Shown here: one piece after another, positions 6,379 through 59,068 of the stretch
How positions within the stretch are numbered: the stretch's first letter is position 1
Layout of the letters: each line of letters begins with the position of its first letter
Origin: Haloarcula japonica DSM 6131
Lineage (GTDB): Archaea > Halobacteriota > Halobacteria > Halobacteriales > Haloarculaceae
Direction: 5' to 3'
Length of the DNA: 64,000 bases
Assembly (NCBI RefSeq): GCF_000336635.1
Contig: NZ_AOLY01000035.1
Location: 124,001-188,000, forward strand
Program-made: the position numbers and the translations under genes
The notes under the pieces: model-generated
Told to the model about the DNA's origin: nothing
Database searches by the model: none
What the model saw: the letters and a program-made list of their open reading frames with translations, nothing else

Positions 6379-7233
6379 CTATCGCCAGCTTTCGAAGTCC
6401 ATCTGTCGACTCCGGTCTTGCTTCCCTTCGAGTACATCTGAACCATATCGAAGGAACGCAATTAGGTCACTAATCTCACCGTCTTCATCCGTTCGTTTCT
6501 CCAGCCCTGCCGCAATATCTCTGGCCTCGTCAGCGGTGTAATGTGCTGATTCTCCACGGCATGAGACTGTGATACTATCACCTTCTACGCTGGCGGTGAC
6601 ACGCTCCTCAGGGTTGTCTGCTTGGCGCTGAGTCAACAGTGCCTCGTACAACTCCCGGTGAGGAATTGTATTTCTCAGGGGGCGAGAGTCTGGTTCAGCT
6701 CCGAGAAGGTCCCGCCGAACCCGGCCAGCAGTCTTCGTCTGACCGTCAGCAATCAGGTTGGCAATCAAACGGAACACGCGGGACATTGGAACCGCGCCCT
6801 TCTCGCGGCTGTCAGTTGGGTTCCTCTGTGGGCCAGCGACCTGCTGAACATTTCCTTCTGCGTCTACCTTCACACCAGGAAAGTCCCCGGGTTCGTGACG
6901 GTCTTTCGGGTTCGCAGGATGATTCTTGCGGCCTGCTATCTGCCCAAGATGAATCATTAGCCCCTGTTCCCCGGTGAACGTCTGATTACAATACGGGCAG
7001 AGCCGAGCGTGTTTCTCGTTGTCGCGTTCTTCGGGGTAATCCATTTCGACCTCCCGTTCGCCGACTGTCTCCAAATCGTCCAGCGAAATATGGTCTGGAA
7101 CTTCCCCGTGCGGGCCGTGGCCGTCCCCACTGGACCTGTTGATGTGGAGATTGATGCCCCGTGCCAACGGCGTTGCATCACATCCTTTGACGGGACAGCG
7201 AACCGTGCGCTCGTCATTAGAATGGTCCGTCAT
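6379..7233 (-). CDS. C2H2-type zinc-finger protein (element)
   Basis: A 284-residue protein with two putative zinc sites: C13/C18 with H30 and H39 (degenerate), and a classic C2H2 finger C79-P-Y-C82...H95...H105 of the form used to bind nucleic acid. The middle (about 150-200) is helical and basic (VFRLIANLIADGQTKTAGRVRRDLL), and the C-terminus is acidic and helical. Its start codon overlaps the stop of the SWIM-finger gene by 4 bases, so the two form an operon. Zinc-finger proteins of this kind recur on haloarchaeal plasmids and proviruses, but I cannot assign a specific role. Confidence 0.8.
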   Translation of the reverse strand: MTDHSNDERTVRCPVKGCDATPLARGINLHINRSSGDGHGPHGEVPDHISLDDLETVGEREVEMDYPEERDNEKHARLCPYCNQTFTGEQGLMIHLGQIAGRKNHPANPKDRHEPGDFPGVKVDAEGNVQQVAGPQRNPTDSREKGAVPMSRVFRLIANLIADGQTKTAGRVRRDLLGAEPDSRPLRNTIPHRELYEALLTQRQADNPEERVTASVEGDSITVSCRGESAHYTADEARDIAAGLEKRTDEDGEISDLIAFLRYGSDVLEGKQDRSRQMDFESWR

Positions 7234-7721
7234 TGGTCCACCTCGAAGCAGTCGAAGCAGGGAAGCCCCGTCCCGTCAGAGCCGTTACAACGTTTGTCTC
7301 CGTTCTCACAGGACGCCGTCCCACCGTCTGTTTCGAGTTTGTCAGCCCCTGTTGTGATACTTTCCGGGGTTGACACCTGGAAGCCCGCCGCGGCCTTCTC
7401 GAAGTCCACAGCGGCTTGTAGAATCATAGGGCCACCGACTGTTGCGAGTGCGACCTTGTGCTTGCAGCCGTAATCCTCGTTGTAGCGGTCGGCCTTACAC
7501 TCACACTCAGCGGGAATGAGAACGCCTTCACGGTCTTCCACGCCGACAAGGTACGAGTGGTCGTCCTTCTGGAAGCCATAACTTGCGTTAGTCACTCTGA
7601 CCAGATGTGGGCCTTCAATAGCGAACTCCCACGCTTCCCAGCTGACTCGCTTTGCCGTCTTTGCGCCGAAGTTCAATTCCTCAACGACACGCTTTTCCGA
7701 ACTGCTGTCTGTAGATTGCAT
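7230..7721 (-). CDS. SWIM zinc-finger protein (element)
   Basis: A 163-residue protein with the SWIM signature CxC-x(10)-CxH at C73, C75, C86 and H88, preceded by the usual beta-strands (YLVGVEDREGVLIPAECEC). SWIM fingers bind DNA or protein and are common in transposases and RNA polymerase-associated factors; a free-standing copy is typical of haloarchaeal mobile elements. A second cysteine cluster (C138, C145, C155, C158) near the end may bind another zinc. It is the first gene of a two-gene operon with the C2H2 protein and is divergent from the winged-helix gene across a palindromic operator. Confidence 0.85.
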   Translation of the reverse strand: MQSTDSSSEKRVVEELNFGAKTAKRVSWEAWEFAIEGPHLVRVTNASYGFQKDDHSYLVGVEDREGVLIPAECECKADRYNEDYGCKHKVALATVGGPMILQAAVDFEKAAAGFQVSTPESITTGADKLETDGGTASCENGDKRCNGSDGTGLPCFDCFEVDQ

Positions 7722-7812
7722 TGGTCTTTGTCACTACGAAGACCACCCGTCCGGTGTTGTCGCACCGGGCGTTTTCCGAACCACAACGCCCCAAGGGGCG
7801 GACGACCTTCTA

Positions 7813-7834
7813 CCAATAACCACGTGGTTACTGG
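7813..7834. promoter_or_regulatory. 22-bp palindromic operator in the divergent promoter
   Basis: Centre taaccacgtggtta (7817-7830) is a perfect 14-bp palindrome; CCA (7813-7815) and TGG (7832-7834) extend it to 22 bp with one mismatched pair. It lies between the divergent SWIM-finger gene (start 7721) and winged-helix gene (start 7901). A TATA-like ggattatac is at about 7870-7878, 25 bases before the winged-helix ATG. A dimeric winged-helix protein encoded next door is the natural candidate to bind it (inference). Confidence 0.7.
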
Positions 7835-7900
7835 TCATAAGTCTTTCCCACTAACGTCGAAGTCAGAGGGATTATACTTCGCCCGCTCGGACATACGGGC

Positions 7901-52901: not shown

Positions 52902-53513
52902 ATGCCCGAACATTCCAATCCCGAACTGCCACCGCTCCCGTACGACTACGACGCGCTGGAGCCGCACATTTCCGAACAGGTGCTCACCTGGCACCACGAC
53001 ACCCACCACCAGGGGTACGTAAACGGCCTCGAATCGGCCGAGGAGACGCTCGCCGAGAACCGCGAATCCGGTGACTTCTCGTCGAGTGCCGGCGCACTGG
53101 GCAACGTCACCCACAACGGCAGTGGACACTATCTCCACACGCTGTTCTGGGAGAACATGGACCCCAACGGCGGCGGCGAACCCGAAGGCGAGCTCCTCGA
53201 CCGTATCGAGGAGGACTTCGGCTCCTACGAAGGCTGGAAGGGCGAGTTCGAAGCCGCCGCATCAGCCGCCGGTGGCTGGGCGCTGCTCGTGTACGACCCT
53301 GTTGCCAAGCAACTGCGCAACGTCAAAGTCGACAAGCACGACCAGGGCGCGCTCTGGGGCTCCCATCCCATCCTCGCGCTCGACGTCTGGGAGCACTCCT
53401 ACTACTACGACTACGGCCCCGCCCGCGGCGACTTCATCGACGCCTTCTTCGAGGTTGTCGACTGGGACAAGGCTGCTGAAGAGTACGAGAAGGTCGTCGG
53501 TCGCGTCGAATAA
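52902..53513 (+). CDS. sod: Superoxide dismutase (Mn/Fe family)
   Basis: Dismutates superoxide. 203 residues: YDYDALEPHISEQVLTWHHDTHHQGYVNGL (first metal His in HHDTHH), THNGSGHYLHTLFWENM (second His), WALLVYDP, and LALDVWEHSYYYDYGPAR (Asp and His ligands). The metal is probably Mn, as in other haloarchaea (family knowledge). A Shine-Dalgarno-like ggagg precedes the ATG by 9 bases; a T6 terminator follows. Confidence 0.95.
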   Translation: MPEHSNPELPPLPYDYDALEPHISEQVLTWHHDTHHQGYVNGLESAEETLAENRESGDFSSSAGALGNVTHNGSGHYLHTLFWENMDPNGGGEPEGELLDRIEEDFGSYEGWKGEFEAAASAAGGWALLVYDPVAKQLRNVKVDKHDQGALWGSHPILALDVWEHSYYYDYGPARGDFIDAFFEVVDWDKAAEEYEKVVGRVE

Positions 53514-53701: not shown

Positions 53702-55069
53702 ATGACTCGCGATACCAATCGTCGAGCGTTCCTGAAGCGAACTGGGGCGGTAACCACTGTCGGTCTGCTTGGTGGGTTGGCAGGCTGTTCAACCGAACAG
53801 ACCGGCGGTGACGGCGGAGACGGCGGCGATGGTGGGATGACCGGAACCGGAACCGAGTCCGGTGGCGACAGCGGTCCGGAGTCGCCGGACGTACTGATGG
53901 TCGTCGGCTATCCCCAGAGCGGTGTGCAACTGTTCAAGGATTTCTACGCCGACTACGGCGACGACGCCGCCGACATCCTCGTCACCGACGGACTGCAGGA
54001 CGGCGAACTGCCGAGCAACGTCGGCAACGAAATGTCGAACGTCCGCGGCACAGCCCCGTCGGCGGCCGGGCCTGGCGTCGACACGTTCACGGATCTGTTC
54101 ACCTCCGAGTTCGATTACGACGAGGCTGGCGTGTTCACCTCACAGGCCTACGATGCGACGGCGGTCCAGATCCTCGCAAACCTGCTTGCCGGGGAAAACG
54201 ACGGGCAAGCCGTCCGGGACCACATGCGTGTCGTCGCCAATCCGGGCGGCGATACGTACGGCCCTTCCGAACTGCCAGCGGCCGTCGAAGCGGCCGCAGC
54301 GGGCGAGAACATCCAGTACGAGGGAGCCTCGAGTGCGGTCAACTTCGACGAAAACGGGGACATGGCCTCGGCACAATACCAGGTCTTCGGCTTCCAAGAC
54401 GGCGGGGGTGTCGATACGCTCAACACTGTCGACTTCAGCGCGGGCGACGACATCCCGCAGCCGGAACCGAACGGCTCTGGGAGCGACCCCGGACGAACTA
54501 TCCGCTTCGGTGTGTTGATGCCCGAAACCGGCGACCTCGGTTCGCTTGGCAGACCGATCCGCGATGGGGCGCTACTCCCGGCCCTGCAACTCGAAGGCGA
54601 AGTCGACTTCGAGTTCGACTACCAGGTCGGTGACACCCAGACCCAGGCACAGGCGGGCATCGATGCGGCCAACTCTCTTGTCAGCGCGGGCTATCCGTCG
54701 ATCACCGGGGCAGCCAGTTCCGAAACGTCGATACAGGTCGCCAGAAACGTGCTCATCGACAACAGCGTCGTCGGCTGTTCGCCAGCGTCCACCTCGCCGA
54801 CGATTACCGACCTCGAAGACAACGATTACATGTTCCGTACCCCGCCCAGCGACGCCCTGCAGGGGCAGGTGCTGGCACAAGTCGGCGTGGACGAACTCGG
54901 TGCCGAGACCGCATCGACGCTGTACGTGAACAACAGCTACGGGCAGGCGCTGCAGGAGGCGTTCGCCGGTGCGTTCGAAGCGGAAGGCGGGACTATCGTC
55001 AACCAGGTCGGCTTCGAACAACAGCAATCGTCCTACACGTCTGAGATCAACAGCGCGATGAACCAGTAA
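53702..55069 (+). CDS. ABC transporter substrate-binding lipoprotein, circularly permuted Leu/Ile/Val-binding fold
   Basis: A 455-residue exported protein. The Tat signal TNRRAFLKRTGAVTTVGLLGGLAGC has its lipobox Cys at 29; a Gly/Asp/Ser-rich linker runs to about 61. Then comes the second half of a Peripla_BP_6 protein (62-249: SPDVLMVVGYPQSGVQLFKDF...YDATAVQILANLL...FDENGD), a Pro/Gly-rich linker (250-265), and last the first half (266-455: TIRFGVLMPETGDLGSLGRPI...CSPASTSPTITDL...NNSYGQALQEAF). In LivJ-type proteins the halves occur in the opposite order. The adjacent liv transporter suggests amino-acid uptake. A ttttataag box precedes the ATG by 23-31 bases. Confidence 0.88.
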   Translation: MTRDTNRRAFLKRTGAVTTVGLLGGLAGCSTEQTGGDGGDGGDGGMTGTGTESGGDSGPESPDVLMVVGYPQSGVQLFKDFYADYGDDAADILVTDGLQDGELPSNVGNEMSNVRGTAPSAAGPGVDTFTDLFTSEFDYDEAGVFTSQAYDATAVQILANLLAGENDGQAVRDHMRVVANPGGDTYGPSELPAAVEAAAAGENIQYEGASSAVNFDENGDMASAQYQVFGFQDGGGVDTLNTVDFSAGDDIPQPEPNGSGSDPGRTIRFGVLMPETGDLGSLGRPIRDGALLPALQLEGEVDFEFDYQVGDTQTQAQAGIDAANSLVSAGYPSITGAASSETSIQVARNVLIDNSVVGCSPASTSPTITDLEDNDYMFRTPPSDALQGQVLAQVGVDELGAETASTLYVNNSYGQALQEAFAGAFEAEGGTIVNQVGFEQQQSSYTSEINSAMNQ

Positions 55070-55097: not shown

Positions 55098-55853
55098 TTA
55101 TCCGCCGAGGAAGTCCTGGCGAACCTGCTCGTCGTTGAGGAGGACCGTCCCTTCGTCCTCGTAGCGGTTCTGACCCTGTACGAGCACGTAACCCCGATCA
55201 CACCGCCGGAGTGCCTCCTTCGCGTTTTGTTCGACCATCAGAATGGCCGTGCCGTCGTCGTTGATGCGGTCGATCCGATCAAACATATCGTCGACCAGAT
55301 CCGGGGCGAGGCCGGCGGAGGGTTCGTCGAGCAACAGCAGGTCGGGGTCGAGCATCAGCGCCCGCCCCATGGCGAGCATCTGCTGTTGGCCGCCCGACAG
55401 CGTCCCGGCCGACTGGTCGGACCGCTCCCGGAGAATGGGGAACCTGTCGTACACCTCTTCAATCCGGTCTTCCGGCACCTCGTCGAGGATGTACGCGCCC
55501 ATTTCGAGGTTCTCGCGCACGCTCAGGGAGCCGAACACGTTGCCGGTCTGGGGGACGTAGCTGATCCCCTCGTAGATGATCTCGTCGGGATTGCGCTGGC
55601 TGATATCGGTCCCACTGAAGATGACCTCCCCGCCCATGTACGTTGTCAGGCCGAAGACGGACTTCATCACCGTCGACTTGCCGGCTCCGTTCGGGCCGAC
55701 GATGACGACGTACTCGCCGTCGGCGACGTCCATGTGAACGTCACTGAGGACCTGCAGGTCGCCATAGCCCGCATCGAGGTCCCGGATGGCGAGGAGTCGC
55801 TCGGTCGGATCGGGAAGCGAAACGGTCTCGGACTCCGTCGCGCGCTGGCTCAT
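55098..55853 (-). CDS. livF: Branched-chain amino acid-type ABC transporter ATPase LivF
   Basis: A 251-residue ATPase. Walker A is GPNGAGKSTVMKS, the signature is LSGGQQQMLAMGRALMLDPDLLLLDEPSAGLAPDL with Walker B and catalytic Glu, and YVLVQGQN precedes the tail. The LivF type is recognised by GGQQQMLA and GLAP. The start overlaps livG's stop by 4 bases. It is the last gene of livHMGF. Confidence 0.95.
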   Translation of the reverse strand: MSQRATESETVSLPDPTERLLAIRDLDAGYGDLQVLSDVHMDVADGEYVVIVGPNGAGKSTVMKSVFGLTTYMGGEVIFSGTDISQRNPDEIIYEGISYVPQTGNVFGSLSVRENLEMGAYILDEVPEDRIEEVYDRFPILRERSDQSAGTLSGGQQQMLAMGRALMLDPDLLLLDEPSAGLAPDLVDDMFDRIDRINDDGTAILMVEQNAKEALRRCDRGYVLVQGQNRYEDEGTVLLNDEQVRQDFLGG

Positions 55854-56680
55854 ACGTCACCTCCCAGATACGCCTCCAGTACCCGCTCGTCCGATTTGAT
55901 AGTCTCGGCATCCCCTTCGGCGAGGACACTCCCCTGATGCATGACGATGATGTGTTCACAGTTGTTCATGATGACGTCCATATCGTGTTCGACCAGCAGG
56001 AAGGTCAGGCCCTGCTCTCGGCGGAGTTCGTGAATCCGCTCCAGTAGTTTCTCCTCCAGCGTCGGATTGACACCGGCAAGTGGCTCGTCCAGCAGAATCA
56101 TCTCGGGATCGGTCATCAGGACCCGCGCCATCTCCAGCAGTTTCCGCTGGCCGCCAGAGAGATTGCCGGCGTTCTCGTGGGCGAGATGGTCGATCTCGAA
56201 GAACTCCAGCGTCTCCCACGCGCGGTCGCGAACAGCCGTCTCGGCCTCGATAACGTCGCCGCGCAGCCCCGGTGTCACCGACCGGATGACCGACTCGCCG
56301 ACCTGTCCACCCGGCGCGAGCATCACGTTCTCCAGTACGGTCATCTCGGACAGTTCGCGGGCAATCTGGAACGTTCGGACCAGCCCGCGGTTTGCGAGCG
56401 TGTACGGCGGGAGCCCGGTAATGCTCTGGCCGTCGAAGGTGACCCGGCCACCAGTCGGCTCGTGAATCCCTGTGATGCAGTTGAACGTCGTCGACTTGCC
56501 GGCCCCGTTCGGCCCGATGAGACCGGTGAGCGACCCCTCTGCCACGGAGAACGTCGCCCCATCGACCGCGACAACGCCGCCGAACTCCTTGCGGAGGCCG
56601 TCGACTACGAGAAGCGGAGAGTCGATGGCGTCGCTCGTGACGGCGGTCTCCTGTCGCGCTGTCGCCTCTGGCTCACTCAT
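55850..56680 (-). CDS. livG: Branched-chain amino acid-type ABC transporter ATPase LivG
   Basis: A 276-residue ATPase. Walker A GPNGAGKSTTFNCITG, Q-loop region VRTFQIARELSEMTVLENV, signature LSGGQRKLLEMARVLMTDPEMILLDEPLAGVNPTLEEKL. The LivG type has an extended helical insert and ends in EHDMDVIMNNCEHIIVMHQG. Start MSEPEATARQE overlaps livM's stop by 8 bases; a longer start at 56716 would overlap 44 bases and is less likely. Confidence 0.95.
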   Translation of the reverse strand: MSEPEATARQETAVTSDAIDSPLLVVDGLRKEFGGVVAVDGATFSVAEGSLTGLIGPNGAGKSTTFNCITGIHEPTGGRVTFDGQSITGLPPYTLANRGLVRTFQIARELSEMTVLENVMLAPGGQVGESVIRSVTPGLRGDVIEAETAVRDRAWETLEFFEIDHLAHENAGNLSGGQRKLLEMARVLMTDPEMILLDEPLAGVNPTLEEKLLERIHELRREQGLTFLLVEHDMDVIMNNCEHIIVMHQGSVLAEGDAETIKSDERVLEAYLGGDV

Positions 56681-57956
56681 CTGCCTCACCTCCGGACCCG
56701 GACTGCGGTCTGTCAAGGCTCACACTCGTTGCAGGTTCGTTCCGGTGGCCGAGCAGCCCGTCTGGCTGGTTCTGGATGATGTATATCAGCACGACGCCGA
56801 TGAGGACGAACCGAAGCGTGCTGACATTGCTAATGGTGTATGCGAGTAGCGGGAGCGGGTCCAGTGACCCGAGCCCAGCGACCGCATCGATGATGTTGCC
56901 GGGTGCACGAGTACCGCCCAGCGAGACGTTCTCGCCCAGCCGGGCCGGCAGATAGAACAGCAGTCCCGAGAACGTCGCCGCCCCGATGATGCTTCCGGTG
57001 TTGGACCCGGAACCGCCGATGATGAGCGCTGCGAACACGTAGAACGTGATCGTCGGTCTGAACTGCTGCGGGCTGATGTAGCCCGCCTGGCCGCGGAACA
57101 GGACCCCGGCCAGCCCCATCAGCGCACAGCCGATCATGAACGTCTTGATCTTGAACAGGCGGGTGTCTTTGCCCAGCGACTGGGTCACCGTCTCGTCCTC
57201 GCGGATCGCCTTCAGCACGCGACCGAACGGCGAATTCGTGATACGAGCAAGCACCCAGTAGCTCGCAGCCACGACCAGCAGGAGGAGTATCCCGTAGGTG
57301 AGATTTGCCAGGTTCGGCCCGGAAACGCCGACACCCTCCATGGCAGCTACGAGCGGCTGGCCAACGCCGTTGATGAACGTCGATGCGACCTGGTTCGCGG
57401 ACTTGAACGAGATGCCAGTCGCGCCGCCGGTCCCGATCGGTACCCCGAGCAGTGAGACCTCGGCGAGACCGTCCCAGTTGACGATGAGTCGGATGATTTC
57501 AGAGAACGCAACTGTCACGATGGCGAGATAGTCGGCCTTCAGCCGGAGCGCCGGCAGCGCCGCGAGCCCGCCGATGATAGCGGCCATCGCCATGCCGCCG
57601 ATGAGGCCGACCCACAGCGGGAGGCCAAGCCCTGGGACCGCGCCGGCGGCCGGGTCCGTCGGCGCGGTGAGAACCGCTGTCGTGTACGCGCCGACAGCCA
57701 TGAACCCTGCAATACCGATATTGAATAGCCCGGTGTACCCCCACTGGAGATTCAGCGCCAGCGCGAGGATAGCGTAGCCGCCGATGAGGACAGTCACACT
57801 CCCGATGAAGCCAGCGGCGAGGTTCGCCCAGTTCGCCCCGCCGACAGCGATTGCCAGCACGAGCATGACGGCCCAGATACTGGCGATGAAAGCGACGACT
57901 AGCCCTACGTCGGGAAGTGCGTCCAGACGGTTTCGAACAGTGTCAACAGCACTCAT
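56673..57956 (-). CDS. livM: Branched-chain amino acid-type ABC transporter permease LivM
   Basis: A 427-residue permease with about nine membrane helices. LNLQWGYTGLFNIGIAGFMAVGAYTTAVL, LKADYLAIVTVAFSEIIRL, and GRVLKAIREDETVTQSLGKDTRLFKIKTFMIG (the EAA-type loop that contacts the ATPases) are typical of LivM. The C-terminal cytoplasmic tail has about 30 residues. ATGA overlap with livH's stop. Confidence 0.94.
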   Translation of the reverse strand: MSAVDTVRNRLDALPDVGLVVAFIASIWAVMLVLAIAVGGANWANLAAGFIGSVTVLIGGYAILALALNLQWGYTGLFNIGIAGFMAVGAYTTAVLTAPTDPAAGAVPGLGLPLWVGLIGGMAMAAIIGGLAALPALRLKADYLAIVTVAFSEIIRLIVNWDGLAEVSLLGVPIGTGGATGISFKSANQVASTFINGVGQPLVAAMEGVGVSGPNLANLTYGILLLLVVAASYWVLARITNSPFGRVLKAIREDETVTQSLGKDTRLFKIKTFMIGCALMGLAGVLFRGQAGYISPQQFRPTITFYVFAALIIGGSGSNTGSIIGAATFSGLLFYLPARLGENVSLGGTRAPGNIIDAVAGLGSLDPLPLLAYTISNVSTLRFVLIGVVLIYIIQNQPDGLLGHRNEPATSVSLDRPQSGSGGEADE

Positions 57957-59068
57957 GCCGTCGACACCCCCCCGAAGATACCGGACGGGCGCAACAACAA
58001 GACGACGATGAGCACCAGAAACGCGGAGGCTCGCGTCAGCCCGGATGGCAGCCAGATCAGGGCCAGGCTATCGACCAGCCCGATGAGAATCCCGCCGGCC
58101 ATCGCCCCGTATATCGAGCCGATACCGCCGACGATGACAGCGGCGAAAATGAGCAGGAGCAGAATCCAACCGAAGTTGAACGATATCGTGCCGCTTTCCA
58201 GCACGAGCAGGTAGCCGCCGATGCCCGCCAGGCCACCGCCGAGAATCCACGTGAGCCGGATCACGCGTTCGGTCGGGATCCCGGTCACGCGTGCGAGGTC
58301 TTCGTTATCGGCCATCGCCCGCATTGCTTTGCCGAGCTTCGTCCGCTGTAGTAGCAGGTGGACGCCGAGCATCAACAGGACCGACACCACGAGCAGGGTG
58401 ATTTCGTTGTCGGTGACTGAAATCATCGAGAACAGCGTCACCCGGAGCCCGCCGCTGGCAACCCCACTCGTCTGCGTGCCGAAGATGAACGCGATGAGGT
58501 AGCGTAACGCGAGCGCGACACCGATTGACGCAATCAGCAACGAGATGTTGTCCGTATTGCGCATGGGGCGATAGGTGAGGCGGTCGACGAGCAACACGAC
58601 GGCGACCGACCCGACACCGGCGACGACGAGCCCGAGAAGCACCGGAAAGAACGTCGAAACAGTGCTCAACTGCCGCCCCGAATTGAGCATGAACAGTTCT
58701 GAAATCGGGGCTCCAGTCCCGAGGCCGGCGGTGATGTACGCGGCGACCCACCCCAGGAACGCCCCAGCAGTCACCGTGTCCCCGTGTGCGAAGTTGGCGA
58801 AGTCGAGGATGCTGTAGGTCATCGACAGACCGATACCGGCGAGTCCGACCGCCAGCCCGACGAGCAGTCCGTCCACCACCATGGAGAGCAATGAGCCCAC
58901 AGTGAGAGACCCACCCAGTAACTTGGTTCCAAGGAAAAACACGGTTGTCCCAGCGAGCTTTGCAACTAAATCCAGCAAGAGGAAGCCACTTACAGCGGCC
59001 ACCACTACTGCTCCCGGCCGGTCACCCATCACCACACGGCCGTCGCTTGCGAACTCAGCAATTCCCAT
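57953..59068 (-). CDS. livH: Branched-chain amino acid-type ABC transporter permease LivH
   Basis: A 371-residue permease with about nine helices. GLAVGLAGIGLSMTYSILDFANFAHGDTVTAGAFLGWVAAY is the family's N-terminal hallmark; RTKLGKAMRAMADNEDLARVTGIPTERVIRLTWILGGGLAGIGGYLL contains the EAA-type loop. An N-terminal extension of about 60 residues with a hydrophobic helix precedes the core. First gene of the livHMGF operon; the promoter must lie in 59069-59160. Confidence 0.94.
   Translation of the reverse strand: MGIAEFASDGRVVMGDRPGAVVVAAVSGFLLLDLVAKLAGTTVFFLGTKLLGGSLTVGSLLSMVVDGLLVGLAVGLAGIGLSMTYSILDFANFAHGDTVTAGAFLGWVAAYITAGLGTGAPISELFMLNSGRQLSTVSTFFPVLLGLVVAGVGSVAVVLLVDRLTYRPMRNTDNISLLIASIGVALALRYLIAFIFGTQTSGVASGGLRVTLFSMISVTDNEITLLVVSVLLMLGVHLLLQRTKLGKAMRAMADNEDLARVTGIPTERVIRLTWILGGGLAGIGGYLLVLESGTISFNFGWILLLLIFAAVIVGGIGSIYGAMAGGILIGLVDSLALIWLPSGLTRASAFLVLIVVLLLRPSGIFGGVSTA

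Follow-up and report, generated by a model that had tools for sequence, protein, structure and literature searches.

The window, a stretch of 64,000 nucleotides from Haloarcula japonica DSM 6131, contains at 53702-55069 an uninterrupted open reading frame on the forward strand, which translates into a TAT lipoprotein of 455 amino acids. All features of this gene given below lie on the forward strand. The first 29 residues (53702..53788; MTRDTNRRAFLKRTG...GGLAGC) read as a TAT-type signal peptide and lipobox, with the twin-arginine motif RRAFLK and the lipobox LAGC, and are followed by a Gly/Asp-rich linker (residues 30-61; 53789..53884) of a type that also stands ahead of the permuted domain in most relatives with the same chain order (hereafter CP1). 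The initial annotation had described a lipoprotein signal and linker, then the second half of a LivJ-type protein and then its first half, a reading with which the open reading frame and the HMM tests agree. This order stood, while the borders of the halves (62-249 and 266-455) were refined. The second, C-terminal LivJ/Peripla_BP_6 half, which was moved to the front and starts SPDVLMVVGY, covers residues 62-245 (53885..54436) according to segment HMMs and a re-ordered Pfam match. The first, N-terminal half covers residues 265-455 (54494..55066), as indicated by its match to positions 1-188 of the Peripla_BP_6 profile and by LivK and LivJ matches in the PDB; it starts with RTIRFGVLMPETGDLG and ends in helix alpha6, SYTSEINSAMNQ. 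The bridge SAGDDIPQPEPNGSGSDPG (residues 246-264; 54437..54493), placed by bridge comparison and dN/dS, connects the ancestral C- and N-termini and corresponds to the Pro/Gly linker that had been proposed to span them. Translation and alignment place the stop codon (55067..55069) and thereby the new C-terminus at the alpha6-beta8 turn of normal relatives, which is exactly the helix-strand turn between NSAMNQ and PDVLMVVGY where the break had been assumed.

The gene is linked to LivF, LivG, LivM and LivH homologues encoded on the reverse strand (livFGMH, 55098-59068). Convergent with it lies a LivF-type ATPase gene (55098..55853), recognised from the list of open reading frames, its ABC ATPase sequence and gene order, and homologues of LivF occupy the same place in most relatives. 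A LivG-type ATPase (55850..56716), a LivM-type permease (56673..57956) and a LivH-type permease (57953..59068) follow, each assigned by sequence and gene order. Just upstream of the permuted gene and on the same strand lies a Fe/Mn superoxide dismutase-like gene (52902-53513), which was not found near the permuted gene in other genera for which enough flank was examined.

Compared half by half with Pfam, the protein does not present its halves in normal order. In the native chain, residues 266-454 matched positions 1-188 of Peripla_BP_6 (PF13458; cut-off 31.7 bits) in two stretches with 82 bits in total, and the first half alone reached 76 bits. Re-joining the halves as first plus second healed the split and gave one unbroken match over profile positions 1-306 with 102 bits, a gain of 20 bits. 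Likewise, a phmmer search of the PDB found 3td9 with 42 bits, essentially over the first half only, when the native order was used, and with 61 bits, continuously across residues 2-310, for the re-ordered chain. The second half alone gave no Peripla_BP_6 match in Pfam, and its ANF_receptor match (E = 0.003) was under that family's cut-off; it is too divergent for Pfam, so that its identity rests on homologues and the re-ordered search. NCBIfam returned a partial LivJ match below threshold (45 versus 477 bits). A normal-order paralog with 43-45% identity to the window protein is encoded elsewhere in the same genome (G000:C40:101731-102876). With nine segment HMMs, segments 5-8 precede segments 0-4 in the window gene (5-6-7-8-0-1-2-3-4), which departs from the canonical linear order of the Peripla_BP_6 family. 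Sequence comparison confirms that the gene encodes a genuine circularly permuted Leu/Ile/Val-type (Peripla_BP_6) domain, and the protein is, by descent, a permuted variant rather than a standard member of this family.

Distribution and chain orders at the liv locus

In a family-level scan, the permuted query was matched over its full length in 27 further genomes of its own genus as well as in other genera, with identities down to 47%; across genera, full-length CP1 proteins share 47-98% identity. Carriers include Haloarcula vallismortis, H. amylolytica, H. sebkhae, H. argentinensis, H. mannanilytica, H. salina and a Halomicroarcula sp. A profile search of 391 genomes, all of this haloarchaeal order, found a full-length permuted match in about 165 of them (counted by eye from the table). 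Outside the haloarchaeal order but within the same phylum no permuted form was detected, all relatives found there having the normal order. The initial annotation had kept a local rearrangement or an assembly error as alternatives to circular permutation. A one-off event in this genome or an artefact has virtually no chance of being correct and was dropped, as the permuted order is conserved across genomes: the same junctions recur in the 27 other genomes of the genus and in many further genera and families, including assemblies of one to three contigs. Together with the unbroken match of the re-joined chain, this conservation bears out the proposed permutation.

We classified the genes at the fetched loci with the nine segment HMMs. 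The 154 complete genes, a figure that counts the window gene and one further gene twice, showed only three orders, namely CP1 in 89, the normal order in 60 and a second permuted order, CP2, in five. CP2 has the segment order 1-2-3-4-5-6-7-8-0, its chain starting just before beta2 and ending after alpha1, so that the break lies between alpha1 and beta2. It was later found in two more genes, those of genomes G490 and G487, which brings the total to seven genomes (L070, L071, L072, L073, L074, L205 and L206, all at the liv locus); five of the seven are incomplete, and G490 is a single contig. A third genome of the genus of G490 and G487, G443, has a normal-order gene in the same liv layout. Normal and CP2 proteins have an unbroken alpha6-beta8 turn (e.g. 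QEALADGPDVVNVIGYP), which is exactly where the chain is opened in CP1, and the CP2 bridge (...NPxGxGxxADxxxG...) resembles that of one large CP1 clade, D (see below).

The layout of the locus is largely shared by the three forms. In most CP1, CP2 and normal loci with enough flank, the binding protein gene and a livF-livG-livM-livH cluster on the opposite strand meet tail-to-tail, and two normal-order outgroup loci from outside the haloarchaea (L172 and L173) are convergent as well; in a minority of the fetched loci no liv genes were detected beside it. In one genus, tandem pairs of CP1 genes lie beside livFGMH (L099:5350-8133, L100:5460-8373 and L123:5393-8192). The second copy of these pairs has a TAT-like signal with no obvious lipobox cysteine (GLMGTLQQ), so that its product, instead of being anchored, may be released. 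The CP1 gene of genome G288 (L207:5576-8374) is split by an insertion-sequence transposase-like open reading frame (6698-7864). Two CP1 genes separated by about 11 kb are present in genome G464 (L182:5363-6730 and L182:16437-18206), the latter being cut near its end by a masked stretch.

Number and route of the permutations

For the gene trees, all sequences were first rearranged to canonical order. On the best tree the CP1 genes fall into five groups: A (Haloarcula and kin, including the window gene), B1 (L053 and L054), B2 (L052), C (L056, L058, L060 and L092-L096) and D, a large clade that contains CP2. Fitting the topology labels takes seven changes in practically all bootstrap trees. AU tests rejected a common clade of all permuted genes (p = 0.001), of C+D (p = 0.003), of A+B+C (p = 0.003) and, less strongly, of A+B+D (p = 0.03), whereas A+B as one clade stayed acceptable (p = 0.09), all of these p-values being optimistic as the CP1 groups were named after the tree had been viewed. 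The backbone branches between the CP1 groups are short and partly unsupported. A single origin of all permuted genes was discarded on the AU test, as was CP2 monophyly (p = 5e-11). Once the G490 and G487 genes were added, CP2 appeared three times inside clade D, and the last residues differ among the three CP2 lineages (AALEVNEADLDIS, PAKMWNDQM and PAMQVNGEI). When trees were inferred separately for the N- and C-halves, A, C and D each formed a clade and the permuted genes were never all joined in one; since both half-trees agree on these groups, a swap of half-domains between unlike parents is not needed as an explanation. A normal-order outgroup roots the tree and leaves the picture unchanged, which suggests that the normal order is ancestral. 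At least three CP1 origins are supported by the AU tests of these sequence trees, and five are probable, with the qualification that A and B may derive from one shared origin.

Simple sequence features agree with this picture. Group C has the bridge SEEDxNATAADPVGVDSFE (e.g. L056, L058 and L092-L096), whereas the remaining CP1 groups have dissimilar bridges of Pro/Gly type, as would be expected if group C had its own origin. Moreover, the CP1 proteins of this group and their normal-order sisters L139, L151 and L157 have VGFPQSG, the others shown having GYP. Nevertheless, one ancient permutation that spread horizontally and was then blurred by reversions or by recombination and gene conversion with normal copies has to be weighed. 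Haloarchaea recombine and exchange genes readily, one and the same turn is opened in all CP1 genes, the bridges of groups B and D are alike (...SAD.xPG..xGR), and A+B withstood the AU test; part of the polyphyly could be only apparent, if normal neighbours had repeatedly converted a gene that was permuted a single time. Such conversion would, however, have to replace both halves and yet keep their order, given that A, C and D are apart in both half-trees, and it would have to be reconciled with the rejection of one permuted clade, of C+D and of A+B+C, with the dissimilar bridge of group C and with the normal order of the outgroup. We consider a single ancient event unlikely.

Repeated permutation is the reading we prefer. 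Normal-order genes at the liv locus of haloarchaea would have given rise to CP1 on at least three and probably five occasions, and CP2, with its new termini between alpha1 and beta2, would have arisen three more times from one CP1 lineage. The most likely route is a tandem duplication followed by in-frame fusion and trimming. The tandem CP1 pairs indicate that duplication does occur at the liv locus, and a fused intermediate could explain why clade D and CP2 have a bridge type in common. Neither a tandem-fused double gene nor a half-trimmed intermediate was found among the classified loci, a few very long open reading frames being upstream extensions of the reading frame that hold no repeated domain segments; the duplication route is thus an inference. 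The same protein with the same role could also have been produced by fission into half-genes and re-fusion, or by excision and re-insertion of a DNA circle. The retention of the bridge type in clade D and CP2 is compatible with this, as a circle and a fused duplicate both predict it. On the other hand, the only split gene seen was that of G288, which an insertion had broken, and the tandem CP1 pairs in one genus suit duplication, so that we rate such a route as doubtful, if somewhat less so than a single ancient permutation.

A broader and tentative proposal, which we hold to be quite possible but do not favour, is that the gene of the liv binding protein is topologically labile. A process at the DNA level, either a hot spot of unequal tandem duplication or the excision and re-insertion of a circle, would then rotate the same coding sequence repeatedly and yield normal, CP1 and CP2 genes, with at least six and perhaps eight rotations restricted to two turns of the fold, and the site of tether entry might be selected.

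Fold, function and comparison with known systems

Both halves are under strong purifying selection: comparisons of the window gene with its relatives gave dN/dS values of 0.03-0.2 in both halves, and of 0.08-0.7 in the bridge, mostly above those of the flanking domains. An AlphaFold model of the permuted chain, based on 76 CP1 sequences, was confident (pLDDT 89.3, pTM 0.85) and contained the strands and helices expected for a two-lobed alpha/beta Venus-flytrap fold. Its top Foldseek matches were LivK, LivJ, LBP and metabotropic-receptor domains (TM 0.33-0.41 by query length), with about 190 of 350 residues aligned; the matches are limited to about half of the fold because the sequential aligner meets a broken order, and they are no order-independent proof. 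For CP2 the model reached a pLDDT of 30 with five sequences only, which speaks neither for nor against a fold.

The motifs GAASSETS and SPASTSP align with structures of Leu/Ile/Val-binding type and, together with family membership, suggest a branched-chain or related amino acid as ligand. The lobe boundaries of LIVBP, which we take to apply here, would assign the termini to lobe 2 in CP1 and to lobe 1 in CP2. Following these boundaries, the lipid tether of CP1 is expected to enter through lobe 2 instead of lobe 1. The window protein is most likely the lipid-anchored receptor of the adjacent LivHMGF importer. A decaying, non-functional gene, with the normal-order paralog as the working receptor, is very improbable. 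This paralog elsewhere in the genome and the transposase-like interruption in G288 would be in keeping with decay, but the frames are open in nearly all genomes, the dN/dS values of both halves are low, invariant residues exist across the 76 CP1 proteins, the signal is intact and the position beside livFGMH is conserved.

Taken together, the gene would encode a lipid-anchored, two-lobed extracellular amino-acid receptor (branched-chain/HAAT type) of a LivHMGF ABC importer, in which a short Pro/Gly bridge links the ancestral termini, the new termini lie in the alpha6-beta8 turn of the second lobe and both fold and ligand cleft are preserved. We assign a probability of roughly 0.8 to this explanation as a whole, including repeated permutation via tandem duplication.

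Natural circular permutations are usually seen once and long ago, with ancestor and intermediates lost. At the liv locus all three orders survive side by side in one layout, their sequences being about 45-98% identical, and the same turns have been hit by several apparently independent events; this coexistence makes it testable how circular permutations arise in genes. It is a rare natural record of a change in chain order with function apparently kept. Furthermore, domain annotation conceals such proteins as partial matches.

The closest known proteins are the LivJ/LivK HAAT proteins (PF13458; LIVBP/LBP 1z15 and 2lbp; Thermotoga LivK 3td9), with which CP1 shares sequence in both halves, LivHMGF neighbours and predicted strands and helices; CP1 differs from them in its swapped halves, its bridged old termini and the position of its new termini, which would lie in lobe 2. 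Permuted type I binding proteins as such are already known. TpMglB-2 (Tp0684) of Treponema pallidum and relatives is a naturally permuted type I ABC-transporter binding lipoprotein that binds glucose and changes its conformation upon binding (PMC4990184). Its chain is broken in the N lobe, behind the third strand, and its permuted part is only 13% identical to the normal counterpart; its authors raised an origin from another gene (PMC4990184). Brautigam et al. proposed the subclass Type Ic/Cluster Bc and speculated that a permuted chain is well suited to binding proteins on a tether (PMC4990184); whether a tether shift between lobes is neutral or selected becomes testable in haloarchaea.

CP1 resembles TpMglB-2 in being a naturally permuted type I binding protein and a lipoprotein. 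In contrast to that member of the glucose/galactose family, it matches the LivJ/HAAT-type amino-acid family, and its break falls not at the TpMglB-2 site but about 190 canonical residues into the domain, in the alpha6-beta8 turn. Both of its halves are clearly homologous to normal relatives, and there are two permuted orders with several origins. Judged by these sequence features, CP1 is of the same kind as the Type Ic (TpMglB-2-like) proteins and stands outside their clade. Searches of the open-access literature turned up nothing on permuted binding proteins of LivJ type or from haloarchaea, on these breakpoints or on their recurrence; the recurrence and the second permuted topology are the surprising findings here. 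Other natural circular permutations include saposin/swaposin and DNA methyltransferases, and the standard models for their origin are tandem duplication, fusion and trimming, or fission and fusion (PMC3320104). These proteins show the same kind of order change as CP1 in other folds; unlike them, the haloarchaeal genes retain normal, CP1 and CP2 orders side by side in one syntenic layout within one archaeal order.
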